A DNA stretch of 64,000 bases from Candidatus Schekmanbacteria bacterium (lineage in GTDB: Bacteria; Schekmanbacteria; GWA2-38-11; J061), in contig JACRJM010000001.1 of NCBI GenBank assembly GCA_016219965.1, forward strand, positions 62,001-126,000, in the 5' to 3' direction. The position numbers and the translations under genes were made by a program. Positions 5,263-40,500 of the stretch are shown in pieces (the stretch's first letter is position 1; each line of letters starts with the position of its first letter). The notes beneath the pieces were generated by a model. That model had not been told where the DNA came from and did not search any database. It was given only the letters and a program-made list of their open reading frames with translations.

Positions 5263-5418
5263 ATGGGAAAAGATAAAGAAACCAAAATCAATAAGTCCGA
5301 AAAAGAGAAGGAAAGAAAAAAGAAATTCTCAGAGCCTGAATTATTCGTATATGATAATCTGAGCGACATCACACTGTTTACAACTGCATCCAATGCAACA
5401 GGTACGTCATTTTTCTGA
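5263..5418 (+). CDS. Small peptide 1, putative RiPP-type precursor (51 aa)
   Basis: ATG at 5263 follows a strong AGGGGAGGG ribosome site. The N-terminal half is highly charged (MGKDKETKINKSEKEKERKK). The C-terminal half reads EPELFVYDNLSDITLFT followed by TASNATGTSFF. The block P-x-L-x-V-Y-x-x-L-x-D-I-T-L resembles the leader motif of 'lasso RiPP family leader peptide-containing' proteins (PxLxxYGxLxxLT), and the short polar tail would be the core. A paralogue follows 62 bp downstream with the same arrangement. No maturation enzyme (PqqD-like RRE, B1/B2, radical SAM) is adjacent. That this is a gene is well supported by the ribosome site and the conserved paralogue; its being a RiPP precursor is inference. 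Confidence 0.7.
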   Translation: MGKDKETKINKSEKEKERKKKFSEPELFVYDNLSDITLFTTASNATGTSFF

Positions 5419-5480
5419 TGATGTTCTTTATTTGTTTTTTTGCAGGAACTAAAACAATTTTATATGTTCCATGAAAGATT

Positions 5481-5642
5481 ATGAAAAAAAATAAAAAAGA
5501 AAATCAGAAAATCCCATTGGAAAGAAAATCCGAATCAGGAAAAAAACAATTCCATGAACCATCTATCAGGGTTTACAGCAAACTCGAAGACATAACACTT
5601 TTCACCTCAGTGTCCAATGTTAGCGGGACTACGTTCTTTTAA
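5481..5642 (+). CDS. Small peptide 2, paralogue of the 5263 peptide (53 aa)
   Basis: ATG at 5481; the ribosome site is weak (AAAGATT). The peptide begins MKKNKKENQKIPLERKSESG and ends EPSIRVYSKLEDITLFT then SVSNVSGTTFF. Against peptide 1, EP-x-x-x-VY-x-x-L-x-DITLFT-x-x-SN-x-x-GT-x-FF is conserved, while the N-terminal halves share only their lysine-rich composition. Conservation restricted to the C-terminal 28 residues, with the last two being FF in both, argues for selection on this segment. The gene sits 47 bp before the large lipoprotein gene and probably shares its transcript. Confidence 0.7.
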   Translation: MKKNKKENQKIPLERKSESGKKQFHEPSIRVYSKLEDITLFTSVSNVSGTTFF

Positions 5643-5689: not shown

Positions 5690-8600
5690 ATGAAAAATAA
5701 GTCCGGATTATTTGTTAAGTTCTCAATATTTTGTTTGTCTTTGGCGGTGATACTCTCTGCCTGCGGAGGCGGGGGAGGTAGCGGAGGAAGCGGAGGAGCT
5801 GATTCCTCAAAGGGGAATGTCAAGACTTCATCGAATAAGTCTATACCCTATGGGACCTTCCGTGCTGATGTTAACGCTGCGACTGGAACAATCACTTTTT
5901 CATACCCTGACAGCAAAAGCTCAAAAAGGCGTTCTGCAAGGAAGAATTATTCAGATAATTGGCCAAATGATACCAGCACTCCGGGGCAGAATGTTACACT
6001 TGCAAGCAGCGGTGGGAGCTGGGATGGCACAAATAAAATATTGTCAGGCAATGTCACAATAACCAACAATACGGCTGATACTTTTTATGCAACCCATGTA
6101 GTTATAACATCTGTTTCAGGGGGTGCTTCGGCTTTAAATGAAAACGGCTATGACCCTGATGGCTATGCTTTTTTTAACCATGCCCCTAATGGTGAGAAAA
6201 TAGCCCCGGCCGGCACAGGTTCTGCTGTTAATTGGAAATTTTCTAATCCCTCATCTGTCGATTTTACAATAATAGGCAAAGTCTATGCGGACAACTGGCA
6301 TCAGATAGCAGGTCCGGGTGTAAGCTTTGGCTGGGACAATGCGACAGCAGAAGATGCAACGGATACAGTGGACAACTTTTTCTTTAACAGTGTAGAGAAC
6401 TATAATGGTAAGGTTTATGGTGTAATAGGGAAGATGGACCGTCCAAACCGTGATGATTCAGTCAATACCCGCACCGGCGGAGAGGTTTGGGAATATGACC
6501 CGACATCAACTAATTTTACTCAGGTAAACAGCGACGGGTGGGCCAATATATCTACTGACAGTCATGCTGGTGTTTTGAACACTATGTTTAACAACTGGGG
6601 CGGTGCGACGACTGTATATAACGGCAATCTTTATGTGACCGGCGGCAAGCATAACTTCCTTGGTGGCGTAGAAGACAGGATGAATGACGGCGGTGACCTT
6701 TTCAGATATAACGGAAGTACCTGGACAAAGGTATATACAAATACAGATGCCAATGCGTTATATAATGTTTTTAGTTTTGACGGCAGTATATTTGCAGGTA
6801 CCATAGGAGCAGGTTACGGCAGAACATGGCTTTCAAGCAATCAGGATGCAGACCTTGCCTATTCTATAACAGGTGATGCCGGCACATGGATACTTGTCAT
6901 GACAGATGCCTTTAATGATGATTGCCCGCAGCTCGCTGCTAATAATCCCGGCAAAAGAATTGGCGGCGCGATTTTAGGCGGCGGAACAGTTAAACTTCTT
7001 GATGGCTCGACGCACGGATATACCGGGAAAGGCGGCGGTACAGCTAAGCCCGGTGTTGTCCTTTATATAGCAGATACACAAAATGGCGGAGGCGGAGGTC
7101 GTCTTGAAAGCCAATGGACGCTTGCCAATGATTTTACTTCTGATGATGCATCATCAATCGCAATAACAGCAGTAACACAGCCGTGGAATTCAGGGAGTGC
7201 TGAGTATTCTCTTACCATAAGCGGTACGACCCTTACACCCCATGCCCATGCTCATCATTTCGCGCCTATAACCCATTTAGGGGTAGAACAGGTAAATGTC
7301 ACTGTAATTGACAATACGACAAACCAGCTAATTGTTGGTCTCCACGCAGGAGGATTTACACCAACAACAAGTGATACTATCAGACTTACCACCGGCAACA
7401 ATGAGCGCGGCTGGGGTGAGACAGGAAATGCTACAAGTTCCCAGCTTTATGTATTTACTCCATCACGTGAAGGAGCAGCCGGAACTCAGGAGCAGTTATG
7501 GCTGTTATCATCAAACCTGCCTCAGGGAGTTGGTCCATACATAAATGCAGGCGGTGAGCTGTTTACAGTGAAGAATATGCAGTCTAATAACAGAACGAAT
7601 GACAGTGACTGGATAAGAAGGATGGATAGTTTCAGTATTACAAGTGAGTATGGATATGCGACACCATCAACATCAGGCGGCACAAACAAAGGAGGCACTG
7701 TAATATCTCCTGTTCCTGTTTATGCAGGTTTTGATGCAGGGATAGATCCAAGTAGCCCCAACGATGCTTACGGAAGGAGCGAATTTACAATATTTCCGGG
7801 AACCCATCAGGGTTGGATGTATGTGACAGTCCAGCCATTCCAGAGGATTAGCTCTGGCTGCCGTATGTATAAGACAGCAGATGGTGTGAACTGGATAACA
7901 GTTACAACAGATGGTTTTGGCGACAGCCAACTGGTCATAAAGAATTACACATCTGTAGGCGGGAAGCTTTATGGAGGCGGCGGCAGGCTTGCAAGCAATG
8001 ATGCGCTTTGTGTTAAGAGTCAATTATGGCCATCGCCGGGGCAGTGGATATCAAGCGGTGCTATAACACCGAGTGATAGCACTTATTTCTTACAACCGGC
8101 TGGTGCATTCCCGTCTCCGTCAGCAGAGTATCCCACAGCTGGCACACTTTTGCTTCAGGCAAGGACCCCCCTCGGTGAGCCTGTTCTGCTGAGTTACATT
8201 TATTCTGAGAAGGTGACCTATACTTCTAACAGGGTAGCAACAGCAGCAACCCTTACGAATGCACTTTCAGCAAACAATGGATACCTTGGAAGGACTCTGT
8301 GGGCTACTGACACGACATTAGTTCTAAGCAACATACCCGGAAATCTTGGGCTTGATACAAGCAAGGGAGGAGTCTGCGTAGAAAGTGAAATAATTACCTA
8401 TGACGGTGTTTCAGGGAGCACTCTTGGAACCCTAACGCGGAGCGGCACTGTTGTACATCCCGACTACTCAGGAGTTGGCAATCACAACAAGGGAGCGCCT
8501 GTGTTCAGGACAACGAGGATAGGTACAACTGAAGTAGGACGTAACGACGGGATTGCCGGAGTACCATACAGTATTGTACTGGGTGGTACTGTTGCAGATA

Positions 8601-8905
8601 TTCCTTCTAAGAAAAACGATAACCTGTCTAATATATTAATTGACAATGAAGAGATTAAATTCACGCAGAGAACCACTACAGCGGGTGTGGTTACATGGGA
8701 TGCAACAGGAGTGCAGATAAGGACCCCAGTACGCGCTTTTGACAGTACAAGACAAAGCGCTCATTCAGCCGGTGCGACAATTTATCTGCCAGGTTTTGAC
8801 GGAATTACAAGAGGAGTTTTAGGTACCGCAGCAACCAATTGGGAATCTGCTGAAGACGGGCTTCTCATATCAAATCCGCCAGTTGAAATGTGGGTAACAG
8901 ATTAA
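5690..8905 (+). CDS. Large lipoprotein with Kelch-like and adhesin-type repeats
   Basis: 1071 aa, started by ATG after a very strong GGGGGAGG. A lipoprotein signal peptide ends in the lipobox LSAC (Cys25), followed by a Gly/Ser linker (GGGGGSGGSGG). Residues 230-380 contain Kelch-like blades with the pattern YNGKVYGVIGK...GGEVWEYDP and YNGNLYVTGGK...GGDLFRYNGSTW. Near the C terminus two segments (about 840-945 and 955-1045) resemble repeats of large adhesins and tail fibres: a 'TDTTLVLSNIPG...VESEIITYDGVSGSTL...TRSG' unit and a shorter 'ILIDNEEIKFTQ...RQSAHSAGATIYLPG' unit. It is predicted to be anchored to the outer membrane as a surface recognition protein. It is the last gene before a strong terminator and follows the two small peptides in the same direction. 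Confidence 0.75.
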   Translation: MKNKSGLFVKFSIFCLSLAVILSACGGGGGSGGSGGADSSKGNVKTSSNKSIPYGTFRADVNAATGTITFSYPDSKSSKRRSARKNYSDNWPNDTSTPGQNVTLASSGGSWDGTNKILSGNVTITNNTADTFYATHVVITSVSGGASALNENGYDPDGYAFFNHAPNGEKIAPAGTGSAVNWKFSNPSSVDFTIIGKVYADNWHQIAGPGVSFGWDNATAEDATDTVDNFFFNSVENYNGKVYGVIGKMDRPNRDDSVNTRTGGEVWEYDPTSTNFTQVNSDGWANISTDSHAGVLNTMFNNWGGATTVYNGNLYVTGGKHNFLGGVEDRMNDGGDLFRYNGSTWTKVYTNTDANALYNVFSFDGSIFAGTIGAGYGRTWLSSNQDADLAYSITGDAGTWILVMTDAFNDDCPQLAANNPGKRIGGAILGGGTVKLLDGSTHGYTGKGGGTAKPGVVLYIADTQNGGGGGRLESQWTLANDFTSDDASSIAITAVTQPWNSGSAEYSLTISGTTLTPHAHAHHFAPITHLGVEQVNVTVIDNTTNQLIVGLHAGGFTPTTSDTIRLTTGNNERGWGETGNATSSQLYVFTPSREGAAGTQEQLWLLSSNLPQGVGPYINAGGELFTVKNMQSNNRTNDSDWIRRMDSFSITSEYGYATPSTSGGTNKGGTVISPVPVYAGFDAGIDPSSPNDAYGRSEFTIFPGTHQGWMYVTVQPFQRISSGCRMYKTADGVNWITVTTDGFGDSQLVIKNYTSVGGKLYGGGGRLASNDALCVKSQLWPSPGQWISSGAITPSDSTYFLQPAGAFPSPSAEYPTAGTLLLQARTPLGEPVLLSYIYSEKVTYTSNRVATAATLTNALSANNGYLGRTLWATDTTLVLSNIPGNLGLDTSKGGVCVESEIITYDGVSGSTLGTLTRSGTVVHPDYSGVGNHNKGAPVFRTTRIGTTEVGRNDGIAGVPYSIVLGGTVADIPSKKNDNLSNILIDNEEIKFTQRTTTAGVVTWDATGVQIRTPVRAFDSTRQSAHSAGATIYLPGFDGITRGVLGTAATNWESAEDGLLISNPPVEMWVTD

Positions 8906-20447: not shown

Positions 20448-21578
20448 TTGCGGAAAGAATCTTATAATAAATTCCAGTTTTCCCCTGAATATCTCTTCCT
20501 TACAAAATTCTCTGCCTATACGCTTACGGAAAAACTTAAAGTTGAGTGCGAAGAGCTTCTCTCAGAAAAGCTCGATTGGGATTTGATAATAGAGCTTGCC
20601 AATTACCATGCAGTTTCGCCTGTCATCTATCGCAACCTCAAATATCTGGATGCCATCGCTCTTTTAGCTCCCGAACACTCAAAGGCTCTCCGCAAAGAAT
20701 ACCACGCCAATTTTATCAAAAACACAACGTTAATAGAGCAGTTCGGCATTCTGAAAAAAGAGATTTTTTCAGCCGGTCTTAAATTCCTTCCCATCAAGGG
20801 AATCCTTTTTTTGTATCTTTTTCCTGAGCATACGGCGTTGAGGCAGATGTCTGACATAGATATCCTGATAAACCCTGACGATGCCCGTCAGTTCATAGAT
20901 ATAATATCAGCACACGGCTATGTTCCCAAAGGGGATACAAATCTTTTTAAAAAATTCGGCAATGAAATTTCTCTTACCAAAGAAGTCAATAAGATCTTCA
21001 TTCATATAGAATTGCAGTGCAGGGTAAAAGCCCTCAATGAGAAGCTCTGGTTCGATTTCGGCAGTGTTATGCAGGGCTCTTCATTCGATGCGGAATTAGC
21101 TTTATATCTCCCATCTCCGGCTGATTCATTCATGATGAATTTCATTCATATTCAGAAACATATCTATCAGGGGAAGGAGATATTCAAATGGATTGCCTCA
21201 GATGCTGAGTTCCTGAGAAGATATTTGTCCTCCTCTGAAATTGAAACTCTTTCAGAACGCCTTGGACTTTCGTATAGAAAAAAATTTCTCCGCTATTGCA
21301 GACAGCTTGACGCATGGTTTGATCTTGGGAAGTTTGAACACCCGGATGAGCTTGAGGTCTTATCCCCTGCATTTGATTTCTCAAAGAAAGAGGAAAAAAA
21401 TTTCTTAAAACTTGCAATAGGCACTTTTGCATATACGAGAGGGTTGAAGGAAAAGATATTGTTTGCTTTCAGCAGATTATCGCCGGGCACAGGGAAAGAC
21501 ACAAATGGCGATGAATCAGGAATCCGCAGCCGTCTGAAGCGAATCATGTATCTGATCAAAAAATTGTTCATAAGATGA
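20448..21578 (+). CDS. NTP_transf_5-type putative nucleotidyltransferase
   Basis: 376 aa from TTG at 20448 with a weak GAAAAGAAA before it. The central part ILKKEIFSAGLKFLPIKGILFLYLFPEHTALRQMSDIDILI holds the D-x-D pair of a nucleotidyltransferase-fold active site, and the 'PIKG' turn is typical of the uncharacterised PF14907 family. Family members often sit in polysaccharide loci with asparagine synthetase-like genes, and in lasso-peptide clusters. Here asnB lies 2.5 kb downstream, separated only by TA modules. The activity of the family is not established. The last residues are basic (RSRLKRIMYLIKKLFIR), suggesting membrane association. Confidence 0.75.
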   Translation: MRKESYNKFQFSPEYLFLTKFSAYTLTEKLKVECEELLSEKLDWDLIIELANYHAVSPVIYRNLKYLDAIALLAPEHSKALRKEYHANFIKNTTLIEQFGILKKEIFSAGLKFLPIKGILFLYLFPEHTALRQMSDIDILINPDDARQFIDIISAHGYVPKGDTNLFKKFGNEISLTKEVNKIFIHIELQCRVKALNEKLWFDFGSVMQGSSFDAELALYLPSPADSFMMNFIHIQKHIYQGKEIFKWIASDAEFLRRYLSSSEIETLSERLGLSYRKKFLRYCRQLDAWFDLGKFEHPDELEVLSPAFDFSKKEEKNFLKLAIGTFAYTRGLKEKILFAFSRLSPGTGKDTNGDESGIRSRLKRIMYLIKKLFIR

Positions 21579-21586
21579 GCGTGCCG

Positions 21587-21988
21587 TCATATAAATAATG
21601 CTTCAAAGTCCCTTGGAGTTATGATTTTAACGTCCTCATAGTATTTTATATCCAGCAGATCAGAGTCTCCTGTTACAAGATAATCTGCCTTTGCAGCAAA
21701 GGCACAGGCGAGGATGTTGTCATCATCAGAATCCCGGCAAATGTTAGAGATTTTGAGGTTGTGTTCTATGATTTCCTCAATTGCTTCACTAATGGGTTCC
21801 ATTGCTAAGCTTATGTCATTATGTGAAAAGTGAAATTTTTTTGAGAGTACTCTCCGGATTTCTGTCATAATGAAGGGACATGCAACAAGGCAAAACTCTC
21901 TGCTGCGCGCTCTGTACAATAATTTCGAGCAGACCCCTTGAGTTATAATTGACGCGACGAAAACATTTGTATCAAATACGACAATCAT
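21587..21988 (-). CDS. PIN-domain toxin (VapC-like, COG1569 type)
   Basis: 133 aa. MIVVFDTNVFVASIITQG opens the PIN fold with the first acidic residue. MTEIRRVLSKKF gives the second, and DSDDDNILACAFAAKADYLVTGDSDLL the third cluster, so the metal site is complete. This is the 'putative toxin-antitoxin system toxin component, PIN family' type. The antitoxin gene is directly upstream and overlaps by 4 bp (ATGA). It starts the first TA island, 9 bp beyond the convergent NTP_transf_5 gene. Confidence 0.88.
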   Translation of the reverse strand: MIVVFDTNVFVASIITQGVCSKLLYRARSREFCLVACPFIMTEIRRVLSKKFHFSHNDISLAMEPISEAIEEIIEHNLKISNICRDSDDDNILACAFAAKADYLVTGDSDLLDIKYYEDVKIITPRDFEALFI

Positions 21989-22203
21989 GATACTGCTTTA
22001 AAAACATCTTCCTCGCTGACAATGCCAACTTTTTTTGCTTTTGGACCAAGTTTCTTCTGCACTGCCCTGAGTTTCATTTCCCAAAGAAACAGACTCAGAG
22101 ATTCTTTCACAATATCACTCTTGTTGCGTCCTGTTTTTTTTGCAAAACAGTCAAGTTCCTCTGAAATGTTCTTGGGAAGACTCACGGATAAAACGGTTCT
22201 CAT
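21985..22203 (-). CDS. Ribbon-helix-helix antitoxin partner of the PIN toxin
   Basis: 72 aa from ATG at 22203, chosen because CAGGAGGA lies at ideal distance; a longer frame to 22254 lacks a site. MRTVLSVSLPKNISEELDCFAKKTGRNKSDIVKESL is a CopG/RHH fold: a beta strand, then two helices. The C-terminal part should bind the toxin. As usual for such pairs it likely represses its own promoter. Confidence 0.85.
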   Translation of the reverse strand: MRTVLSVSLPKNISEELDCFAKKTGRNKSDIVKESLSLFLWEMKLRAVQKKLGPKAKKVGIVSEEDVFKAVS

Positions 22204-22282
22204 AGTTATCCTCCTGTATGACAATACAATACAACACAGAGGCAAATATTTCAATTAATCTTTTTCATGCAGTAATGCCAGC

Positions 22283-22406
22283 CTCTTCCTCCCCCCAATC
22301 TCCGCCTTTGCTTTTTAAATTCTAATATCCTTATATTAATATTCTTATGTGTGGAATCGTTGCTATATAGTCTTACAAGGAGCTATCGCCTCCGGTTGAC
22401 CGCGCC
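22283..22406 (+). pseudogene. Relic A: copy of the asnB upstream region and first codons
   Basis: This 124-bp stretch matches the region around the true asnB start (about 24066-24186) almost base for base, from the CTCCGCCTTTGCTTTTT stretch through TTATATTAATATTCTTATG. Its frame from ATG 22347 reads MCGIVAI then TAG where asnB has Tyr8, and resumes S-x-x-x-x-SPPVDRA as in asnB. Homology ends at 22406, where the sequence continues in frame into a HEPN domain. It is a scar of an asnB 5' end, not a functional gene. Confidence 0.85.
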
Positions 22407-22433
22407 CAATATGATTGGGAAACTGCCAAGGCA

Positions 22434-22760
22434 ATGTTAGATGCAGGGCGTTATGTCTATGTTGCTTTTATGTGCCAGCAGGTTATTGAAAAGAAATTAA
22501 AAGCATACATTGAAAATAATGGGATAACCCCTCCGCGCGTTCATAATCTTATCAATCTGTCAAAAATGGCTGGGAATTACGAGGAACTGCCGGACAATAT
22601 AAAGGATTTCTTGCAGGATCTTACCACATATTATCTTGATTCAAGGTATAAGGAAGATATTTCAAAGTTGTCAATTTTCATGAATAAAGATAAAGCTGGA
22701 GAATATTTGCAAAAGACTCAGGAGGTCTTGAAATGGCTGACACAAAAGATGAAATTCTAA
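22434..22760 (+). CDS. HEPN-domain protein joined to an asnB relic
   Basis: 108 aa from ATG at 22434. GRYVYVAFMCQQVIEKKLKAYIENNG, then PPRVHNLINL and YYLDSRYKED, is the HEPN pattern of the toxin side of HEPN/MNT pairs. The family usually starts about 15-20 residues earlier, and the missing part is readable upstream in frame (QYDWETAKAMLDAG) but joins the asnB relic, with a stop codon at 22368 and no start codon in between. The gene has probably lost its native start; whether the ATG at 22434 restores activity is uncertain. The MNT partner overlaps its 3' end by 28 bp. Confidence 0.8.
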   Translation: MLDAGRYVYVAFMCQQVIEKKLKAYIENNGITPPRVHNLINLSKMAGNYEELPDNIKDFLQDLTTYYLDSRYKEDISKLSIFMNKDKAGEYLQKTQEVLKWLTQKMKF

Positions 22761-23053
22761 TTCTTTTAAGAAAATTTCGTGAAACAATTGAAGGGATAAT
22801 TCATGCAGACAAAATAATTTTATTTGGTTCTTATGCTTTAGGTTCAGAGAAAGAATACAGTGATATAGATATAGCTGTTGTTTCAGCAGATATAAATGAT
22901 GAAAACTATTATGATTTGAGGAAAGCCATATTCAGAAAAGCAATGGAAATCGACTGTCGCATGGAAACCCTTTGTTTTTCAAAAGAAGAGTTTGAGAATG
23001 ACTGGCTTCCAATAATTCCTGAAATTAAGCGTACAGGGGTTGAAGTACTCTAA
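22733..23053 (+). CDS. MNT-type minimal nucleotidyltransferase (antitoxin)
   Basis: 106 aa, ATG preceded by CAGGAGG. KIILFGSYALGSEKEYSDIDIAVVS is the GSx10DxD catalytic motif of minimal nucleotidyltransferases. In characterised MntA-HepT pairs the MNT protein AMPylates the HEPN toxin and neutralises it. It overlaps the HEPN gene, as expected for a coupled pair. Complete in length. Confidence 0.88.
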   Translation: MADTKDEILILLRKFRETIEGIIHADKIILFGSYALGSEKEYSDIDIAVVSADINDENYYDLRKAIFRKAMEIDCRMETLCFSKEEFENDWLPIIPEIKRTGVEVL

Positions 23054-23081
23054 TAAATGTTTTTTCCTATCTCCTTGATCT

Positions 23082-23112
23082 GTCATTGCAAGCGTAGCGA
23101 AGCAATCTCATC
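23082..23112. repeat. Short dispersed repeat (GCGAAGCAATCTCAT type)
   Basis: GTCATTGCAAGCG-TAGCGAAGCAATCTCATC. Related copies lie at 36446-36475 and 41298-41327, and a variant at 37397-37425, all in the gene-poor parts of the TA islands. Confidence 0.7.
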
Positions 23113-23127
23113 TTTTATTCCCCCTGT

Positions 23128-23204
23128 AATCCTCCCCCTCAAATCTCCGCCTTTGCTTTTTGAATTCTAATATGCTTATGTGCGAAATCGTTGCTCCCCG
23201 CTGA
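23128..23204 (+). pseudogene. Relic B: second, more degenerate asnB 5' end
   Basis: CTCCGCCTTTGCTTTTTGAA and the following AT-rich leader match the true asnB upstream region, with a 14-bp deletion just before the start. From ATG 23178 the frame reads MCEIVAPR then TGA, against MCGIVAIY in asnB. It separates two HEPN/MNT modules. Confidence 0.78.
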
Positions 23205-23232
23205 ACAGAATACATTATTATTCTAAGAAATT

Positions 23233-23553
23233 CTATATGGCGAGTTCAATCGAATCTTCCAGAGCACCTGATATTAACGAAGATGCATCTTTAATTTTTT
23301 TGTATTCATCAGGTGTATAGCAGATATAATCAACATGCTTTTGAAAAGGTACTTTTTTTAATATTAAAGGCATTCGTTTTAAGAACGGAATTTTTTCGAA
23401 ATAATTGGAAATCACTATAATGTCAATATCAGAATCCTTTTTTGCAACACCTCTGACTCTTGAACCAAATATGATTACTTTTTCCGGCTTGAATTTCTTT
23501 ACAAGAGAAGGAAATGCATCTTTTCTGAACTTATCTATCCAGCGGTCAGCCAT
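23233..23553 (-). CDS. MNT-type minimal nucleotidyltransferase (antitoxin, module 2)
   Basis: 106 aa. PEKVIIFGSRVRGVAKKDSDIDIIVIS carries the GSx10DxD active site. ATG at 23553 follows GGAGAA and starts 1 bp after the HEPN stop, so the two are cotranslated. It is the partner of the HEPN gene at 23555-23950, in the opposite orientation to module 1. It differs from the 22733 protein well beyond the motif, so the modules were acquired independently and are not a tandem duplication. Confidence 0.88.
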   Translation of the reverse strand: MADRWIDKFRKDAFPSLVKKFKPEKVIIFGSRVRGVAKKDSDIDIIVISNYFEKIPFLKRMPLILKKVPFQKHVDYICYTPDEYKKIKDASSLISGALEDSIELAI

Positions 23554-23554
23554 A

Positions 23555-23950
23555 TCATTTCTCCAGAAGCCTGTTGTATATTTTTTTTAATGACTTAAAA
23601 AATATTTTTGCCATTGTTACTTTTTCTCTTGCGATATTTTCATCGTATTCTTCATAAGGAACGTTTTCACTTACGTCCGGATACCGGGAAAATGTATAAT
23701 CTGCAGTAAGTTCTGAAGCAGCATCTATGAGTCTCTTTTCTAATTTAAGTTCTCTTGCCAATTCATCAATATAATGTGTTCTTGGAATTTTCTTTCCATT
23801 GATGGCAAAAATTGATTTCAGCAGTTTTTCTACAGATTGATGAGCAAGAAAAGCAGCTACATCATAACCGCCTATAGCAATATTTTTTTCTGCCATTTCC
23901 AAATCATGCAAAGCTTGTTTAAGCCATTTAATGGCTATTTTCTCATTCAT
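23555..23950 (-). CDS. HEPN-domain toxin (module 2)
   Basis: 131 aa, full length: MNEKIAIKWLKQALHDLEMAEKNI, GGYDVAAFLAHQSVEKLLKSIFA, PRTHYIDELARELKL and YTFSRYPDVSE, in HEPN order. The SRYPD segment is characteristic of the PF05168 group. Toxicity of this group comes from RNA cleavage; activity here is inferred from family. It is intact, unlike the HEPN genes at 22434 and 36899. Confidence 0.87.
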   Translation of the reverse strand: MNEKIAIKWLKQALHDLEMAEKNIAIGGYDVAAFLAHQSVEKLLKSIFAINGKKIPRTHYIDELARELKLEKRLIDAASELTADYTFSRYPDVSENVPYEEYDENIAREKVTMAKIFFKSLKKIYNRLLEK

Positions 23951-24126: not shown

Positions 24127-27084
24127 ATGTGCGGAATCGTTGCTATATACTCTTACAGACAATCATCGCCTCCAGTTGACCGCGCCGAGCTTCTCCGCAT
24201 CCGCGACCGGATGACTGCCCGCGGCCCTGACGGCTGCGGTGAATGGTATTCGGCAGACGGCAAAGTAGGCATGGGACACCGCCGCCTTGCCATCATAGAC
24301 CTTTCCGAAACCGGCGCCCAGCCTATGCAAAGCTCCGATGGCAATCTCGTGATAGTATTCAACGGAGAGATTTACAATTACCGCGCTCTCCGCAGCTCCC
24401 TTGAGAAAAAGGGCTATCGTTTTCGCTCGGCCAGCGACACTGAAGTCCTGCTTAATCTCTATGCAGAAAAAGGCGCAGACATGCTGAACGACCTTCGCGG
24501 CATGTACGCCTTTGCCATCTGGGACGAGCGTGACAAGAGCCTTTTCCTTGCCCGCGACCCCTTTGGCATCAAACCACTCTACTATTCAGATAACGGGAAT
24601 ACGTTCCGCGTAGCATCACAGGTAAAGGCTCTCATTGCCGGCGGCGCCATAGACACCTCACCGGAGCCTGCTGGTCATGTAGGCTTCTTCCTCTGGGGGC
24701 ATGTCCCGGAACCTTTCACGTTCTTCAAGAGCATTAGCTCACTTCCTGCCGGTACATATATGCAGATTCGAGGCGGACAGAGACGCACAAAAACATTTTT
24801 CAGCATAAGGGATGAGCTTGCAGAGGCAAGCCTTACTCCGCTTGAACTGCCGCGCGAAAAGATAAGGGAAAGATTGCGGGATGCTCTTCTTGACAGTGTC
24901 AGCCATCATCTTGTGGCTGATGTGCCTGTGGGAGTTTTTCTCTCATCAGGACTTGATTCGACCACTCTCACTGCGCTTGCAACAGAAGCAGGTGCGGCGC
25001 AACTTCATTCAGCCACACTTGGTTTTAGGGAATACAAGGGTACAGAAGCTGATGAAACTATCCTCGCAGCAGAGGTTGCAAGGATTTACGGGACAACACA
25101 CAGCACAATATGGACAGAAAAAGCAGATTTTCAGGATGAGCTTACAAACATACTTGATGCAATGGACCGCCCTACCATTGACGGCGTTAACAGCTATTTT
25201 GTCAGCAGAGCCGCAGTGAAGGCAGGCTTAAAAGTTGCCCTTTCAGGGCTTGGCGGGGATGAATTATTCGGAAGCTATGAAAGTTTCAGACAGATACCGC
25301 AGATGGTAAGATTTCTTCGCCCATTTTCAACAATACCCGGTTTTGGTAAAGCATTTCGCGTTGTAAGTGCTCCTTTTCTAAAGCGCTTTACATCTCCCAA
25401 ATACGCGAGCCTCTTTGAGTATGGGGGAACTTACGGCGGCACATATCTGCTTCGCCGCGGGATGTTCATGCCCTGGGAGCTCCCAGAGTTACTTGACGGG
25501 GAAATGGTAAAAGAAGGCTGGCAGAAACTTCAGACGTTAATCAGACTTGAAGAAATTGTAAAAAATATTAGCTCGCCTTATTTAAAAGTTTCTGCCCTTG
25601 AGATGTGCTTGTATATGCGAAACCAGCTCCTTCGTGACACTGACTGGGCGAGCATGGCTCATTCGCTTGAAGTGCGTGTCCCTTTTCTAGATATGGGATT
25701 GCTTCATACTTTAGCGCCGCTCATGGCGTCCGGACATCCGCCAAATAAGCAGGATATGGCTTCAAGCCCGGTAAAAGCCCTTCCAGAAAAAGTCCTCAAC
25801 CGTGGGAAAACCGGATTTTCTGTGCCTGTCTATGAGTGGCTTTTGCAGGATCGCGAAGCTAAGGGAGAGAGGGGCTTGCGAGGATGGGCGAAGAAAGTTT
25901 ATCAAAGCTATACCCCCGCAAAACAGACATCACATTATCATGCGCCAATTTTACAGGATAGCCTTCAAAGTGAAACTGTAAAGAAAAATGCTCAAAAAGA
26001 ATCATTCAGTATTTTAACTCTTGTAACTGATGGCTTTGGAGGTCATGGCGGTATAGCTAAATTCAACCGGGATTTATTGACAGCGCTTTGCAAAATTTCA
26101 GGATGCAAAGAAGTAGTTGCAATTGCAAGGCTTATGCCTAATCAAAGCGAGCCAAAGCCTGCTAAACTTTCCTATGTAACAGATGGATTGAACAGCAAAA
26201 CAAAGTACATGTTCACTGTTTTAAAACAATTAACCTCAAATAAAAGCTACGATATCATTATATGCTGTCATATAAACCTTCTTCCTATCGCATATATTTG
26301 CAAGCTGATATGCAAAGCTCCTTTAGTTCTTATGCTCTACGGGATAGATGCATGGAATCCTGTAAACAAATACTTAATAAACAAGATTGATGGTTTTATT
26401 TCAATAAGCGAGATAACAACATCCCGTTTTCTTGCGTGGGCAAAAATTGATAAAAATAAGGGCTTCATTCTACCCTGCTCTGTTGATATAAATAGTTATG
26501 GCTCCGGACCTAAAAATCCTGCCTTACTGAAACGTTACGGCCTTGAAGGAAAAACTGTGCTTATGACCTTTGGGCGTCTTGTATCGAAAGAAAGATACAA
26601 AGGCTTTGACGAAGTTCTTGAAATATTACCTGACCTCGCAAAAGAGATTTCCAATATCGCCTACCTTATTGTTGGAGACGGCGATGACAGAAAACGGCTT
26701 GAGGCAAAAGCAGAACTGCTTGGTGTAAAAAATAGAGTAGTTTTTGCAGGAAAAATTTCGGAAGCAGAGAAAGCAGACCATTACCGGCTTGCAGATGTTT
26801 ATGTAATGCCAAGCCGTGGGGAGGGTTTTGGGATAGTCTATCTTGAAGCTATGGCATGCGGCATACCGGTCATTGGAAGTAAAGTTGACGGAAGCCGCGA
26901 GGCATTGAGAAATGGGGAATTGGGTATATTGGTTGACCCGAGCAATTGTTCTGAGTTAAAACAAGCCATTCTTACAGCCATCCTTAACAAGGAGAGGGTT
27001 GTGCCTGCCGGATTGTGCTATTTTTCTTTTGAGAGTTTTACCGGCTATTGCAACAATATAATGAAACAATTGCTTAAAGCTTAA
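24127..27084 (+). CDS. asnB: Asparagine synthetase-like protein fused to a GT4 glycosyltransferase
   Basis: 985 aa in one uninterrupted frame. Residues 1-190 are a class II glutamine amidotransferase with catalytic Cys2 (MCGIVAIY) and RMTARGPDG. Residues about 240-615 are the asparagine synthase domain with pyrophosphate loop SSGLDS at 273-278 and ALSGLGGDELFGSY. From about residue 626 a second protein begins (FSILTLVTDGFGGHGGIAKFNRDLL) and runs as a GT4 glycosyltransferase with donor motif PSRGEGFGIVYLEAMACGIPVIG. Stand-alone AsnB proteins of polysaccharide loci end near 620-640 aa, so this is a true fusion. It might amidate a sugar carboxylate and glycosylate the same intermediate. No Shine-Dalgarno is visible. 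Copies of its 5' end lie at 22283 and 23128. Confidence 0.88.
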   Translation: MCGIVAIYSYRQSSPPVDRAELLRIRDRMTARGPDGCGEWYSADGKVGMGHRRLAIIDLSETGAQPMQSSDGNLVIVFNGEIYNYRALRSSLEKKGYRFRSASDTEVLLNLYAEKGADMLNDLRGMYAFAIWDERDKSLFLARDPFGIKPLYYSDNGNTFRVASQVKALIAGGAIDTSPEPAGHVGFFLWGHVPEPFTFFKSISSLPAGTYMQIRGGQRRTKTFFSIRDELAEASLTPLELPREKIRERLRDALLDSVSHHLVADVPVGVFLSSGLDSTTLTALATEAGAAQLHSATLGFREYKGTEADETILAAEVARIYGTTHSTIWTEKADFQDELTNILDAMDRPTIDGVNSYFVSRAAVKAGLKVALSGLGGDELFGSYESFRQIPQMVRFLRPFSTIPGFGKAFRVVSAPFLKRFTSPKYASLFEYGGTYGGTYLLRRGMFMPWELPELLDGEMVKEGWQKLQTLIRLEEIVKNISSPYLKVSALEMCLYMRNQLLRDTDWASMAHSLEVRVPFLDMGLLHTLAPLMASGHPPNKQDMASSPVKALPEKVLNRGKTGFSVPVYEWLLQDREAKGERGLRGWAKKVYQSYTPAKQTSHYHAPILQDSLQSETVKKNAQKESFSILTLVTDGFGGHGGIAKFNRDLLTALCKISGCKEVVAIARLMPNQSEPKPAKLSYVTDGLNSKTKYMFTVLKQLTSNKSYDIIICCHINLLPIAYICKLICKAPLVLMLYGIDAWNPVNKYLINKIDGFISISEITTSRFLAWAKIDKNKGFILPCSVDINSYGSGPKNPALLKRYGLEGKTVLMTFGRLVSKERYKGFDEVLEILPDLAKEISNIAYLIVGDGDDRKRLEAKAELLGVKNRVVFAGKISEAEKADHYRLADVYVMPSRGEGFGIVYLEAMACGIPVIGSKVDGSREALRNGELGILVDPSNCSELKQAILTAILNKERVVPAGLCYFSFESFTGYCNNIMKQLLKA

Positions 27085-35394: not shown

Positions 35395-35697
35395 TAATTA
35401 TCCTGATTTTTTCGTGTTCTCTAAATTATTGTTTGTTGCAAAAAACTAAAAGTAGTAATATTTAAATATATAACAAGTGAAAAAATCTTTAAGAGAGGAA
35501 TTGTCATGAACTTGCAGCAATTACTTCAAGAATTATCTCCCGAGATGCAAAAAGAAGTTGAGGATTTTGCTAAATTCTTGTTAGCAAAAACAACAAAACA
35601 AGTGCATCGCAAACCTTCCTTTTCCTGGGCCGGAGCACTTGAAGATTTGAAAGAACAATACACCTCAGTTGAGCTTCAACATAAGATTTCAGAATTG
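35395..35697 (+). repeat. 303-bp direct repeat, copy 1
   Basis: Collinear with 40430-40732 at constant offset 5035 and only scattered substitutions. It contains a promoter-like AT-rich leader and all but the last codons of a DUF2281-type gene. Copy 1 begins six bases after the ydcF-like stop. Confidence 0.9.
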
Positions 35698-35739
35698 CAA
35701 AGAATTCAAGGAGGAAATAACAGTGCTCATAAATGTTAG
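35506..35739 (+). CDS. DUF2281-type antitoxin-like protein with hybrid C terminus
   Basis: 77 aa. MNLQQLLQELSPEMQKEVEDFAKFLLAKT and RKPSFSWAGALEDLKEQYTSVELQHKIS match the DUF2281 small proteins that accompany PIN toxins. The intact relative at 40541-40750 ends ...HKISDLMIGGK; here homology stops at HKISEL and the frame reads on into the leader of the next gene (QRIQGGNNSAHKC). Its own PIN partner has been lost at this junction, leaving the antitoxin beside an unrelated DUF104/PIN pair. Confidence 0.75.
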   Translation: MNLQQLLQELSPEMQKEVEDFAKFLLAKTTKQVHRKPSFSWAGALEDLKEQYTSVELQHKISELQRIQGGNNSAHKC

Positions 35740-35959
35740 AGCAAGGATTTCGAAAGGCATAATAGAACCGGATGAAAAGATAAACATTCCTGAAGGAACC
35801 AAGGTCATTGTTACAATAAAAGAAATAACTGCCAAGTCAAGAAAGGATGCGTTTGATAGAGCGGCTGGCTCTTGGAAAGGAACTATTGATGCTGAAAGGT
35901 TAATCAAAAATATTTACGATAGCCGTTGTGTCTCAACAAGGAAGTTGCCCAGGTTATGA
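35723..35959 (+). CDS. DUF104/AF2212-like antitoxin
   Basis: 78 aa from GTG 35723, chosen because AAGGAGG lies eight bases before it. VRARISKGIIEPDEKINIPEGTKVIVTIKE is the beta-hairpin core of the AF2212-like antitoxin family. The following helix (KDAFDRAAGSWKGTIDAERLIKNIYDSR) should bind the toxin. The stop overlaps the toxin start (ATGA). Confidence 0.85.
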   Translation: MLINVRARISKGIIEPDEKINIPEGTKVIVTIKEITAKSRKDAFDRAAGSWKGTIDAERLIKNIYDSRCVSTRKLPRL

Positions 35960-36357
35960 AACTGGCTTATCTAATTGATACTGACTGGATAATTCACTAT
36001 TTGAATGGGAATGAAGGAATTGTTGGAAATCTTAAGGAATTAAAAATAGAGGGTTTATCAATCAGCGTTGTTTCCTTGGCTGAAGTTTATGAAGGTATTT
36101 ATTATTCTACTAATCCTATTGATAATGAAAAAGGATTAAACGATTTCTTGACAAGAGTCTCAATTCTGGGAATTGACAACGAGATATGTAAAGTTTTTGG
36201 TAAAGAGCGAGGGCGATTGAGAAAAACAAAAAACTTGATAGATGATTTTGACCTTCTGATAGCCTCAACCTGCCTTTGCCATAAACTCACCTTACTAACC
36301 AATAATCGAAAACACTTTGAGAAAATAGACGGGCTAAAAATAATATCTTTTCCATAA
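35956..36357 (+). CDS. PIN-domain toxin (VapC-like)
   Basis: 133 aa from ATG 35956, overlapping the antitoxin stop. MKLAYLIDTDWIIHYLNGNE holds the first Asp, ISVVSLAEVYEGIYYS the Glu, and LIDDFDLLIASTCLCHKLTLLTNNRKHF the remaining acidic residues and the NNRKHF end typical of VapC. Complete PIN active site. Predicted RNase of tRNA or rRNA; target unknown. Confidence 0.9.
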   Translation: MKLAYLIDTDWIIHYLNGNEGIVGNLKELKIEGLSISVVSLAEVYEGIYYSTNPIDNEKGLNDFLTRVSILGIDNEICKVFGKERGRLRKTKNLIDDFDLLIASTCLCHKLTLLTNNRKHFEKIDGLKIISFP

Positions 36358-36393
36358 TGCATTAATTCCTAAGAAGATTCCTTCAACTGTTGC

Positions 36394-36443
36394 TTCCGCG
36401 AACCACTTGCCTATCTTTATTACAGGATAAGGTATTGAGGGGG
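36394..36443 (+). pseudogene. Relic R1 of the ydcF-like 3' end
   Basis: Fifty bases match the end of the ydcF-like gene from CCGCGAACCACTTGCC through CAGGATAAGGTATTGA and a following G run. The frame would read YREPLAYLYYRIRY and stop, as in the true gene. It separates the DUF104/PIN module from the MNT/HEPN module. Confidence 0.85.
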
Positions 36444-36445
36444 AT

Positions 36446-36475
36446 GTCATTGCGAACGAAGTGAAGCAATCTCAT
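36446..36475. repeat. Short dispersed repeat
   Basis: GTCATTGCGAACGAAGTGAAGCAATCTCAT. Placed 3 bp after relic R1; the same order (ydcF relic then this repeat) recurs at 41181-41327. Confidence 0.7.
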
Positions 36476-36581
36476 AAAGCTATACTATAGAAAAAATAAC
36501 TTTACCTACGCGCTCCATTGTAATTATATTATATTTGATTATAACTTTTATCCTTACCATTTAAGGAGAAGAAGAAAAGCA

Positions 36582-36902
36582 ATGAATGAAGTTGAAAGAA
36601 CTATACTTGGCAAATTTAAGTCGCTCATTATGAAAAAAATCAATTTATATAAGATGATTTTGTTCGGCTCGAGGGCACGTGGTGATGCTTTTGCTTTTTC
36701 AGACATGGATGTGATGATTATAATAAATAATTCAGTTTCTGAAAATGAACTTGATTATATTAGTGATTGTGCATGGGAAGCAGGCTTTGAGTATGGAATT
36801 GTTGTAGTTCCTGTAGTTTTCAGCAGGGATGAATGGGAAAACAGCCCGGAACGTTATTCACTACTTGCTCAAGCCATAGTCACTGATGGCGTGCAATTAT
36901 GA
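36582..36902 (+). CDS. MNT-type minimal nucleotidyltransferase
   Basis: 106 aa. MILFGSRARGDAFAFSDMDVMIII gives the GSx10DxD site, here with D-M-D. The C-terminal VPVVFSRDEWENSPERYSLLAQAIVTDGVQL is typical of this antitoxin group. AAGGAGAAGAAG precedes the ATG. The HEPN partner starts by ATGA overlap but is frameshifted. Confidence 0.88.
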   Translation: MNEVERTILGKFKSLIMKKINLYKMILFGSRARGDAFAFSDMDVMIIINNSVSENELDYISDCAWEAGFEYGIVVVPVVFSRDEWENSPERYSLLAQAIVTDGVQL

Positions 36903-37296
36903 AAGATGATGAAATAGCAAGCCTTATACAATACAGGTTGGAGCAGGCGCAGATTGCCCTCGATGATGCACGCTTTTTATTTTCTGGGAACGCAGTCCCC
37001 AGAGCATTGTAAACAGGGCTTATTATGCAATGTATTATGCGGTTCTTGCTTTACTTCAAAAGATAGGCAAGATTCCATCAAAACACACTGGTGTGATTAG
37101 CCTATTCGACACTGAATTTGTCTTAAAAGGAATTTTCTCAAAGGAACTCTCAAAAGATTTTCATAAAGCATTCGAGCTCCGTCAGGTTTCTGATTATAAA
37201 ACATTAACGCCAATATCACTGGACAAGACAGAAGATACTTTAAACAAGGCAGAAAAGTTTGTCGCAGCCGTTCGATGCTATCTTATTAAGAGATAA
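36899..37296 (+). pseudogene. Frameshifted HEPN toxin gene
   Basis: From ATG 36899 the frame reads MKDDEIASLIQYRLEQAQIALDDARFLFSGNAVPRAL and stops at 37012. The neighbouring frame then continues SIVNRAYYAMYYAVLALLQ through SLFDTEFVLKGIFS to KFVAAVRCYLIKR, the expected rest of the HEPN domain. A one-base loss (or equivalent) near 37000, at CCCCAGAGC, breaks the gene. Loss of the toxin with an intact MNT antitoxin is a plausible safe decay order. Confidence 0.85.
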
Positions 37297-37626
37297 TTTT
37301 TTTCATCCCCTCACCTTAATTCTCTCCCCGGAGGGGAGAGGAAAAAAGAGGAAGCACGAAGACCCTTCACCGTCTGTCATTCTGAGCCCTTCGCTTGTCA
37401 TTCTGAGCGTAGCGAAGAATCTCATATTTCGGCTCAGGATAAACTCCGTGAAAAATCTAAATAATAAGAGGAAGAACGAAACCCTTCGTTGCACTCAGGG
37501 TGACAGAAAAAATGTGACAGAAAAAAATCAAATATGGGAAACGGTTTCGCCGCGATGTTCCTCGCAGTGACAGGACGTAGGATGTCATTGTGTGCGGCAG
37601 GTTCTGTAATTAAAGCCAATATCAGG
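37297..37626. repeat. Gene-free patchwork of short dispersed repeats
   Basis: About 330 bp with no supported gene. It holds a perfect hairpin CTCTCCCC/GGGGAGAG (37322-37340) in a 'CCCTCACCTTAATTCTCTCCCC' context, a GTCATTCTGAGCG-TAGCGAAGAATCTCAT element (37397-37425), and inverted fragments of similar elements around 37484-37590. The composition is of repeat-derived debris between two TA modules. Confidence 0.65.
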
Positions 37627-37785
37627 TCAGCCAGCATGTGTCTTCAATTTCTTTTCCCGCAAATGTCCATACTTCTTCTTTAACAACTTAAGCTGTTCGA
37701 TTTCAGACAACGCAGATAATTTGATTTCTGCTTTAGCTTGAAGATTGCGCTTCATTTCTACGGCATTAAGTTTATTAACTTTCAT
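37627..37785 (-). CDS. Small protein, putative antitoxin of the adjacent PIN toxin
   Basis: 52 aa from ATG 37785, which follows GAGAGG; the longer frame has no site. MKVNKLNAVEMKRNLQAKAEIKLSALSEIEQLKLLKKKYGHLRE is charged and helical. It is downstream of and overlaps the PIN gene by 11 bp. It matches the short partner often annotated next to this PIN subtype. Function inferred from context. Confidence 0.65.
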   Translation of the reverse strand: MKVNKLNAVEMKRNLQAKAEIKLSALSEIEQLKLLKKKYGHLREKKLKTHAG

Positions 37786-38236
37786 AAAGCACCTCTCTCG
37801 GGCTCCTAATCTCAATCATAGGATATCCAAGTTTAAGATTCAATGAGTTTATCAGGTGAATACGGTTTAAATTTACAATGTGTTTGAAATTCCAACTAAC
37901 AAGAATGTCTGCTTTTTCCACAGTTGCTATCGCAATATGACGTGCATCTGAAAGACTATTTTCAGTTACAGCGCCGTTTTTCAAGTAAGCCCTTGCAAGT
38001 TCAATTGACTCCTCATTAAGAAAAACATATTCGGTATATTTATAAGGTACATCATTCAAGACGCTTTTAACATTTTCAGGGGCTTCTTCAAGTTCGAATA
38101 ATACCAAATCTGATATCACAATTCTCTTCTTGCCTGAAATAAACTCGGAAAAAAGCTGGTTGGAATAGTCTTTAAATTCATCGTCAAAACATCCTCCGAT
38201 TACAGATGTGTCAACATATACGCGAGGTTTAATCAT
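37775..38236 (-). CDS. PIN-domain toxin
   Basis: 153 aa from ATG 38236; a TTG four codons upstream (38248) is possible. MIKPRVYVDTSVIGGCFDDEF gives the first Asp, ISDLVLFELEEAP the Glu, and NSLSDARHIAIATVEKADILVSWNFKHIVN the third acidic group. The motif series, ending SWNFKHIVN...GYPMIEIRSPREVL, is a recognisable PIN subfamily. Here the toxin gene precedes the partner gene, the reverse of classical vapBC. Confidence 0.85.
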   Translation of the reverse strand: MIKPRVYVDTSVIGGCFDDEFKDYSNQLFSEFISGKKRIVISDLVLFELEEAPENVKSVLNDVPYKYTEYVFLNEESIELARAYLKNGAVTENSLSDARHIAIATVEKADILVSWNFKHIVNLNRIHLINSLNLKLGYPMIEIRSPREVLYES

Positions 38237-38314
38237 CACTGATTCCAATCAGGAATTGAATCCTTATAGTAAATTATGACTGAAAAATCTGTTAATTGGT
38301 TAAAATTATAATAA

Positions 38315-38520
38315 ATTAATAATCTTCTTTAAAGAAGTATTTTTACTAAGGCAAACAACTTTTTTATATTTTTCCGATCCGGTTGAGGTAATTGTTGTTT
38401 TAAGAGACAAAAAAGCACTCTTGTTTATTATCCCGCATTTTTCCGCACGTCTGTTATGCTGTCTTTCTGGTACCGCGAACCTCTTGCCTATCTTTATTAC
38501 AGGATAAGGTATTGAGGGGG
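38315..38520 (+). repeat. 206-bp direct repeat, left copy (contains ydcF relic R2)
   Basis: Matches 39553-39758 at constant offset 1238. It starts ATTAATAATCTTC, includes the palindrome TTCTTTAAAGAA, and from 38414 is a copy of the last ~100 bp of a ydcF-like gene whose frame encodes STLVYYPAFFRTSVMLSFW, then the conserved YREPLAYLYYRIRY end. The two copies flank a HEPN/MNT pair. Confidence 0.88.
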
Positions 38521-38545
38521 GATGTTGTTGGTTACGTAAGTCATC

Positions 38546-38953
38546 CTATGATAATATATATTTACTCGCCCATTTCAATATCTTTTCAGCGAGTTCAATT
38601 GATTCATCGGCATCTTCATTGGTAAGATCTCCCCAATAACCGGGATAACGCGTTTCAACAGCATAAGGAGTTAGTTTACCTGCTTCAGTAAGCATTGAAA
38701 TGAGTTTAATGCCTGAGTTCTCTAATATATCTAACAGTTCTTCCAAATCATGTGTAAGTGGAAAATCAATTTCTTTGAACAGCAAAACTGCTTTCACTGC
38801 TTTTTCAGCACACTGCTGAGAGTGAAAACAAATTTGTTCATTCATGACCATTTTGCTTTTTCTTCCCAGTTTGGCAAGTTCCAAATCGCTTTGGGCATGC
38901 TTCATCCATTCTTCAGGCGAAGACGGCAGTCTCTTTTTAGGCGGCGGATTCAT
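38546..38953 (-). CDS. HEPN-domain toxin (module flanked by 206-bp repeats)
   Basis: 135 aa. PEEWMKHAQSDLELAKLG, ICFHSQQCAEKAVKAVLLFKEIDFPLTHDLEELLDIL and YAVETRYPGYWGDL are in HEPN order. The TRYP segment is intact. It overlaps the 3' end of the MNT gene by 17 bp, the order MNT-HEPN being reversed relative to modules 22434 and 23233. Confidence 0.88.
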   Translation of the reverse strand: MNPPPKKRLPSSPEEWMKHAQSDLELAKLGRKSKMVMNEQICFHSQQCAEKAVKAVLLFKEIDFPLTHDLEELLDILENSGIKLISMLTEAGKLTPYAVETRYPGYWGDLTNEDADESIELAEKILKWASKYILS

Positions 38954-39293
38954 AAACCACTTTCCCAGTTCTAATGGCTTCTCTATAGATCAAGCCCGGA
39001 GTATTAGCAAGTTCAGTGAATTTACTTTCAGGGATAACTATAATATCAATTGAAAGCAATATTCCCTTTAAAGCGCGCCTTATGCGCACGCTTTCTTTTC
39101 GCGGATTTTCGATGCTATTATTAACTACTACAAGTACATCGAGGTCGCTATTCAGGTTAATTTTCCCTTTAGCATATGAACCAAAAATAATAAGTTTGGA
39201 GGGATTGCTTATCTCGATGATCTTCCTTATTACCTGCTCTACCTTTTTAGAAGTTATCATCCATGAAATATTGTTTATTTTATTGGCTTTCAC
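38937..39293 (-). CDS. MNT-type minimal nucleotidyltransferase
   Basis: 118 aa; a second ATG 11 codons later is possible as start. SKLIIFGSYAKGKINLNSDLDVLVVV is the GSx10DxD motif. PGLIYREAIRTGKVVYESAA is the usual end of this family. Pairs with the overlapping HEPN gene. Confidence 0.88.
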   Translation of the reverse strand: MKANKINNISWMITSKKVEQVIRKIIEISNPSKLIIFGSYAKGKINLNSDLDVLVVVNNSIENPRKESVRIRRALKGILLSIDIIVIPESKFTELANTPGLIYREAIRTGKVVYESAA

Positions 39294-39419
39294 TTATATC
39301 CCCATAATAATTTTTCCTTGTAATAATTTTAGCTTTAAAACTCTTTGTTAATCAAGTTCTTTTAATCAAAAGAAATATTTGTAGTTCTGCATAGGGGTGA
39401 ATTATTATCATTTTTTTAT

Positions 39420-39489
39420 GTCATCCTCGCAAAAGCGGGGATCCAGAAATAATGAGCAAAACTGGATTCCGCATCAAGTGCGGAATGAC
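39420..39489. repeat. Imperfect inverted-repeat element (GTCAT...ATGAC)
   Basis: GTCATCCTCGCAAAAGCGGG-GATCCAG at the left faces CTGGATTCCGCATCAAGTGC-GGAATGAC at the right. It is a small REP- or MITE-like element without coding capacity, in the 570-bp gene-free gap between the MNT gene and the UPF0175 gene. Confidence 0.65.
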
Positions 39490-39552
39490 AACCTTGCATT
39501 AGCATTTGGATGCCTCGTAGCTCTGCATACGAGAAATGCCATTTAAATTATA

Positions 39553-39758
39553 ATTAATAATCTTCTTTAAAGAAGTATTTTTACTAAGGCAAACAACTTT
39601 TTTATATTTTCCCGATCCGGTTGAGGTAATTGTTGTTTTAAGAGACAAAAAAGCACTCTTGTTTATTATCCCGCATTTTTCCGCACGACTGTTATGTTGT
39701 CTTTCTGGTACCGCGAACCTCTTGCCTATCTTTATTACAGGATAAGGTATTGATGGGG
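39553..39758 (+). repeat. 206-bp direct repeat, right copy (contains ydcF relic R3)
   Basis: Second copy of the 38315-38520 repeat, with ydcF-like 3' end from 39653 to its TGA at 39751. Differs from the left copy at a handful of positions. Confidence 0.88.
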
Positions 39759-39865
39759 GATGGCATTGCCACTTGACAGCTTTTATTATTCAATTAAACT
39801 ATAAATCAATATAGATGGTTGATATCTGAATAAGAAGTTTATTCTACACTTCGGAGGAAACAACA

Positions 39866-40144
39866 ATGGCAAAGGAATATGTGTTTAAATTAAAGATACC
39901 TGATGAGACTTTTAACAGGAAATTTAAAGAGGAAGAATTCACAGCGAGGGTACGAGAAAGAGTCGTAATGGATTTGTTACGAGATAGGAAAATATCTCAA
40001 GGCAAGGCAGCTGAACTCTTAGTGATAAGCAGGAGTGAACTTGTGGACTTGATGACTAAATATAATATCCCTGCTTTTGTAGCGGCGTCAGATGAACTTA
40101 AGGAGGGACTTAAGAATCTGAAAAGTGCTTTAGGAGGAAAATAA
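39866..40144 (+). CDS. UPF0175-type antitoxin
   Basis: 92 aa; CGGAGGA precedes the ATG. RVRERVVMDLLRDRKISQGKAAELLVISRSELVDLMTKYNIPAF is the winged or helix-turn-helix core of UPF0175 proteins, which pair with DUF3368 PIN toxins. The C-terminal helix DELKEGLKNLKSAL is the likely toxin-binding part. The toxin gene follows after 2 bp. Confidence 0.87.
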   Translation: MAKEYVFKLKIPDETFNRKFKEEEFTARVRERVVMDLLRDRKISQGKAAELLVISRSELVDLMTKYNIPAFVAASDELKEGLKNLKSALGGK

Positions 40145-40146
40145 GA

Positions 40147-40500
40147 TTGCTCATTGCCGATTCTAGTTCTATCATTTCTTTTGCCAGGGCTAAGAAGTTG
40201 GAGCTATTAAAAAAGGTAGTTCAAAAGTTAACCATCCCGGAAGGAGTTTACAAAGAAATTGTATTTAAAGGCAGAGGAAAGCCAGGCGCCAAAGAAATCG
40301 CGACTGCATCCTGGATTGATGTTAGAAAAGTCAAAAATAAAGAGAGGCTGGCAGATTTATCTGCAAAATTAGGCCAGGGCGAGAAAGAGGCAATTGTTTT
40401 ATGCGAAGAGTTAGATGCCGTTCTCTTAATAATTATCCTGATTTTTTCGTGTTCTCTAAATTATTGTTTGTTGCAAAAAACTAAAAGTGGTAATATTTAA
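40147..40500 (+). pseudogene. DUF3368 PIN toxin truncated by the 303-bp repeat
   Basis: From TTG 40147 (AGGAGGA upstream) the frame reads MLIADSSSIISFARAKKLELL through PEGVYKEIVFKGRGKPGAKEI and GQGEKEAIVLCEELDAVLL, the first two thirds of a DUF3368 PIN protein. At 40430 the 303-bp repeat begins, and the frame ends in unrelated IIILIFSCSLNYC... The family normally continues with the D(D/E)xxAR acidic cluster, so the metal site is incomplete and the toxin is almost certainly inactive. Confidence 0.85.

Follow-up and report, generated by a model that had tools for sequence, protein, structure and literature searches.

Two described groups of RiPP systems come closest to the locus considered here. 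In phosphorylated lasso peptides with split B1 and B2 (paeninodin, Bradymonas BsfA and pseudomycoidin), the precursor leader carries characteristic residues at positions −17, −14, −12 and −2, and the enzymes comprise a free-standing PqqD-type B1, a B2 protease and an HPr-kinase homologue (PMC10368454, PMC8498205, PMC5067487). B1 binds the leader with nanomolar affinity and presents it to B2 (PMC5067487). Published mutations show that the action of B1, B2 and kinase is sensitive to changes at Tyr(−17), Pro(−14), Leu(−12) and residue −2; the kinase BsfK, an HPr-kinase homologue, phosphorylates core position 3 of BsfA (PMC10368454). The second group, the PqqD-dependent radical SAM RiPPs (PQQ, mycofactocin, SynChlorMet and GeoRSP types), combines a PqqD and a radical SAM enzyme with a small precursor.

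The two tandem small ORFs examined here lie in a window of 64,000 nucleotides (the whole stretch of DNA that was analysed) from Candidatus Schekmanbacteria. The leader residues and the three enzyme types of the phosphorylated lasso systems are found again in this genome; unlike those systems, the cores have no Asp or Glu, Phe replaces Tyr(−17), the enzyme cassette on contig C14 has a radical SAM enzyme and no lasso cyclase, and the precursors are unlinked from the enzymes. A free-standing B1 (PqqD) and a B2 occur together on C14, at a distance from the peptides. With the second group the system shares PqqD and a radical SAM enzyme in one cassette and a small precursor as the predicted substrate. 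It differs in that the cassette also encodes a B2 protease and an HPrK-like kinase, that none of the NCBIfam radical SAM and PqqD models reaches its cut-off, and that the precursor is remote, whereas homologues in two other genomes (G192, G043) do lie within their cassettes. The best overall explanation, with a probability of roughly 0.7, is that the ORFs encode precursors matured in trans by the C14 cassette, to give a product other than a lasso peptide.

Two small ORFs and their leader register

The features of the two ORFs are as follows.
5263..5418, + strand: putative precursor peptide 1, 51 aa; ATG ORF with GGGGAGGG ribosome site, matched by the family profile and under purifying selection
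5326..5376, + strand: predicted RRE-binding leader block of peptide 1, FSEPELFVYDNLSDITL, positions −17 to −1 in lasso leader numbering
5377..5415, + strand: predicted core of peptide 1, FTTASNATGTSFF, assuming a cut after the residue following Thr(−2)
5481..5642, + strand: putative precursor peptide 2, 53 aa; ATG ORF, matched by the family profile and under purifying selection
5550..5600, + strand: predicted RRE-binding leader block of peptide 2, FHEPSIRVYSKLEDITL, positions −17 to −1 in lasso leader numbering
5601..5639, + strand: predicted core of peptide 2, FTSVSNVSGTTFF, assuming a cut after the residue following Thr(−2)

The original prediction described two paralogous ORFs of 51 and 53 aa with a common C-terminal motif. 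Both are present; they share 49% identity over 49 residues (pair E=5e-15), and most of the 25 invariant columns fall in the C-terminal half, which is under strong purifying selection. Homologues in related genomes, on which that prediction depended, were found by profile search: beyond the window pair, the family has two members in the same genome and one in a relative (E 1.6e-18 to 5.8e-14), which puts the motif beyond chance. Across the final 31 codons of these five members, synonymous change is near saturation (pS 0.69–1.10) and non-synonymous change is 0.12–0.35, which identifies both ORFs as genes that are translated and selected for. The peptides belong to no family in Pfam or NCBIfam, no Rfam element lies close to them, and a tblastn search of plasmids with one peptide gave no match.

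It had also been suggested that the peptides might serve as export tags or short secreted signals. This does not fit their N termini, which in the alignment are highly charged and rich in Lys, Glu and Asn; by inspection, no family member has a hydrophobic signal sequence. An unmodified secreted signal peptide would suit the closeness to surface lipoproteins (see below), and is nevertheless very improbable, with such N termini and with homologues located in modification cassettes.

The conserved block corresponds, without a gap, to the lasso/B1 leader register [FYW](−17)xxP(−14)x[ILVT](−12)x9T(−2)x(−1). The original prediction had noted a likeness to lasso-type leaders; the register is in fact exact in all members, with Phe in place of Tyr(−17). 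The ungapped 17-residue register occurs in 21/21 precursors compared, a set gathered partly by means of the motif, and in 66/6,814 control small ORFs. Sister precursors within enzyme cassettes have Gly or other residues at position −8, and the missing Gly(−8) is therefore no argument against a lasso-type leader.

The predicted core comprises 13 residues, F[TS][ST]xxN[VA]xG[TG][TS]FF, with Ser or Thr at position 3, where BsfK phosphorylates BsfA. None of the five Schekmanbacteria cores contains Asp or Glu, and hence none has the acidic residue at core positions 7–9 that a lasso macrolactam requires. Together with the absence of a lasso cyclase from the cassette, this led to rejection of a lasso peptide as the product. 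Very likely, then, the ORFs encode RiPP precursors in which a lasso-type leader is joined to a core of another kind.

Relatives inside enzyme cassettes, and the enzymes of the genome

Precursor-like peptides of this kind also occur beside enzymes. A first scan of 386 genomes with a profile of six peptides returned, beyond the family, weak matches of which five (G192, G043, G100, G366, G099) lie beside HPrK-like genes. In a second test, for which loci were fetched by radical SAM similarity, an HMM of seven peptides from outside enzyme cassettes was run against 9,573 small ORFs from 22 loci with a cassette and 66 controls, the controls contributing 6,814 ORFs. Each of the top 11 matches is a cassette ORF, with E values between 8.5e-7 and 0.77 against 6.1 for the best control. 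They are situated beside PqqD, HPrK, radical SAM or B2 genes, among others in Nitrospira, Loosdrechtia, Deltaproteobacteria and HR33. Eight of the 11 loci were obtained through the radical SAM enzyme and not through the peptide, L082, L084 and L085 having come from the peptide search and so not being independent; among the eight, L098 is identical with the G043 locus that the peptide profile had already matched, which leaves seven fully independent loci.

In G192, B2, precursor, HPrK and radical SAM genes follow in a row. The single G043 locus reads PqqD, lipoprotein, precursor, HPrK, radical SAM, lipoprotein, B2, and links all kinds of part, though with lipoproteins that may be unrelated to that of the window. 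The PqqD–HPrK–radical SAM(–B2) loci of Nitrospira, Ca. Loosdrechtia, Deltaproteobacteria RBG_13_61_14, UASB270 and HR33 share with the present system the leader register, the cassette enzymes and short cores, several of which contain FFG[ST]F; they differ in having the precursor beside the enzymes, other cores and, in some precursors, a repeated xxEPKL motif. A natural PqqD fusion was also noted in G099 (L085:1524-1967), with a C-terminal stretch, KKPFCVPTIEKYTDLEELLLLDPIHEVDESGWPKQSLNTK, resembling a leader and core of its own, and is followed by an HPrK-like gene; its AF2 model (mean pLDDT 43.5) was too poor for a fold search. In G002, a precursor-like ORF, MKYEKPELKSLNLKNPEPKSPNDEKIETAGGDVCTEGGNAGTCNIGYDDGHLTGG, has two radical-SAM-like ORFs and one PqqD as neighbours (L092:4159-4326, contig C36).

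The genome of the window encodes four PqqD proteins and one B2-type transglutaminase. On C14, genes for PqqD, an HPrK-like kinase, a radical SAM enzyme and lasso B2 stand in a row. The B2 scores above its NCBIfam cut-off and, by inspection, contains the family's expected Cys, His and Asp; in the kinase, likewise by inspection, the His, P-loop and Asp-Asp positions given for BsfK are present with the same spacing. The cassette has no precursor ORF within or beside it and no transporter, and no asparagine-synthetase-like cyclase occurs within the 18 kb around it. Cassettes of the same type are found in G001, G002 and G003, and near coaD/rsmD-type genes in G001, G002 and the genome of the window (G000).

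In a PqqD tree, the C14 protein, those of the precursor-cassette loci and those of the peptide-bearing G023 and G308 group together (2 label changes against 7.3 when shuffled, 0/500); moderate support (83/85) separates this group from the genome's remaining PqqDs. It is probable that the C14 set matures the peptides. The original proposal of RiPP-like precursors served by enzymes encoded elsewhere is supported by the leader register, by remote homology to precursors encoded in cassettes and by a precursor-less cassette in the same genome, all as read from sequence.

The peptides might instead be RRE-dependent precursors acted on by another PqqD system. One candidate is a second PqqD locus on C4 (132k), with an S8 protease, a radical SAM enzyme, an HPrK and a signal peptidase, which like C14 has no obvious precursor of its own. 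We consider this unlikely: the locus has no B2 protease, its PqqD falls in a separate supported group (98/97), and family-like precursors elsewhere sit with C14-group PqqDs. The two remaining PqqD loci (C4:210k and C15:233k) already have candidate precursors. The former (L031:8443-13307) is a separate candidate RiPP locus, combining PqqD and a 58-aa peptide ending in KYVQPEVITYTNDDVIKHLGPAQACSTTPCTVSPSGSGF with a 573-aa protein that weakly matches FG-GAP, a radical SAM/SPASM protein and an HPrK-like protein; here, too, a small precursor adjoins a large exported protein.

Several observations weigh against the pairing with C14, among them the moderate tree support, the second PqqD locus without an obvious precursor and the lack of a transporter in the cassette. 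G001 and G003 have the cassette, yet no peptide was detected in them, either by a relaxed profile or in front of proteins that share the N-terminal domain of the lipoprotein; in G391 (a draft, 84% complete) a peptide is present and no PqqD was found; and at the PqqD locus of G023 and G308 kinase and radical SAM genes are absent. PqqD is present in 47/98 background genomes, so that co-occurrence alone is weak, and it was rejected as proof of pairing.

Lipoprotein neighbours

The large surface lipoprotein predicted downstream of the ORFs, in the same direction, was found.
5690..8905, + strand: 1071-aa lipoprotein with lipobox LSAC and an N-terminal domain at about residues 50–205; paralogues lie downstream of the other peptides

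Its ORF starts 48 nt past the stop of peptide 2, behind AGGGGGAGG. Of the four peptide copies in the genome, two form the window pair and the others lie at C15:16.7 kb and C3:350 kb; each of these three loci has a same-strand lipoprotein of one family (1048–1071 aa) starting 48–75 nt after the peptide. The single copy in G002, a member of the same order, is likewise upstream of a lipoprotein. The peptide also occurs in five of nine genomes of another phylum. In four of these it adjoins a large lipoprotein, preceding it in G023 and G386 and following it in G391 and G387; in G308 none is directly beside the peptide. Three full-length lipoprotein paralogues have no upstream peptide, two in the genome of the window (L034:14283-17474, L206:5266-8445) and one at a contig end in G002 (C16:1-3093). 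That of L034 comes after a peptide-bearing copy at the same locus.

This arrangement also bears on whether the peptides could be regulatory, acting as leader (arrest) peptides whose conserved C terminus governs how the lipoprotein is translated. The position directly upstream of the lipoprotein at all three loci of the genome and in G002, and the invariant Phe-Phe-stop end of the Schekmanbacteria members, would suit such a role. It is improbable all the same, in view of the tandem copies, the downstream or separate positions in G391, G387 and G308, the three lipoproteins without a peptide, the homologues that precede kinase genes in Nitrospira, Loosdrechtia and G192, and the 17-residue leader register.

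The chance that the lipoprotein is a functional partner is about even. Across the two phyla, hhalign gives no more than a suggestion of homology for its N-terminal domain (probability 52%, P 1.5e-4); the AF2 model of the lipoprotein (mean pLDDT 33.5) was too poor for a fold search. The strong conservation of the core and the presence of the lipoprotein suggest a function in housekeeping or at the surface, and not a variable antibiotic. The C3 peptide locus is preceded on its own strand, at a distance of about 1.3 kb, by a molybdenum/tungsten riboswitch (Rfam RF01055; L035:10479-10600), and between the two is a 268-aa ORF with a C-terminal PEP-type motif.

Proposed maturation and other gene clusters of the window

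In the proposed scheme, a free-standing PqqD (B1/RRE) would bind the leader block F(−17)xxP(−14)x[IL](−12)...T(−2), the B2 transglutaminase-like cysteine protease would cleave after residue −1, and the HPr-kinase-like and radical SAM enzymes would modify the 13-aa core. These enzymes are most likely those of the C14 cassette; as it has no neighbouring precursor, maturation would proceed in trans, with scattered precursors supplying one enzyme set. Peptide 2 is probably cotranscribed with the large surface lipoprotein, which, at a guess, displays, binds or carries the presumably exported product.

The lasso B1/B2/kinase logic and the radical SAM logic, usually found apart, would thus be joined on substrates unable to form a lasso. 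Somewhat speculatively, this could represent an uncharacterised RiPP class, in which lasso-type recognition and cleavage are reused without the cyclase to make a short, Phe-rich peptide modified by a radical SAM enzyme and a kinase, which giant surface lipoproteins would sense or carry as a load. One stationary cassette, inherited across a phylum, would feed the dispersed precursor–lipoprotein operons. Precursors unlinked from their likely enzymes would be missed by cluster-based mining. A search of the open literature found no paper describing such a combination.

The original prediction also held that no RRE, protease or cyclase gene is adjacent to the peptides. This stands in so far as the PqqD and Transglut_core3 matches are on other contigs, but the window itself does contain an asparagine-synthase gene (24127-27084) and a nucleotidyltransferase gene (20448-21578), within an exopolysaccharide-type cluster that shows no apparent connection with the peptides. 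The former is a single 985-aa ORF in which a glutamine-hydrolysing asparagine synthase is fused to a GT4 glycosyltransferase, and in view of this fusion and its setting it was set aside as a lasso cyclase. Inside the same cluster, stretches 21587-23950 and 35506-41152 are, by eye, densely packed with small PIN-toxin-like, antitoxin-like and HEPN/minimal-nucleotidyltransferase-like ORFs.
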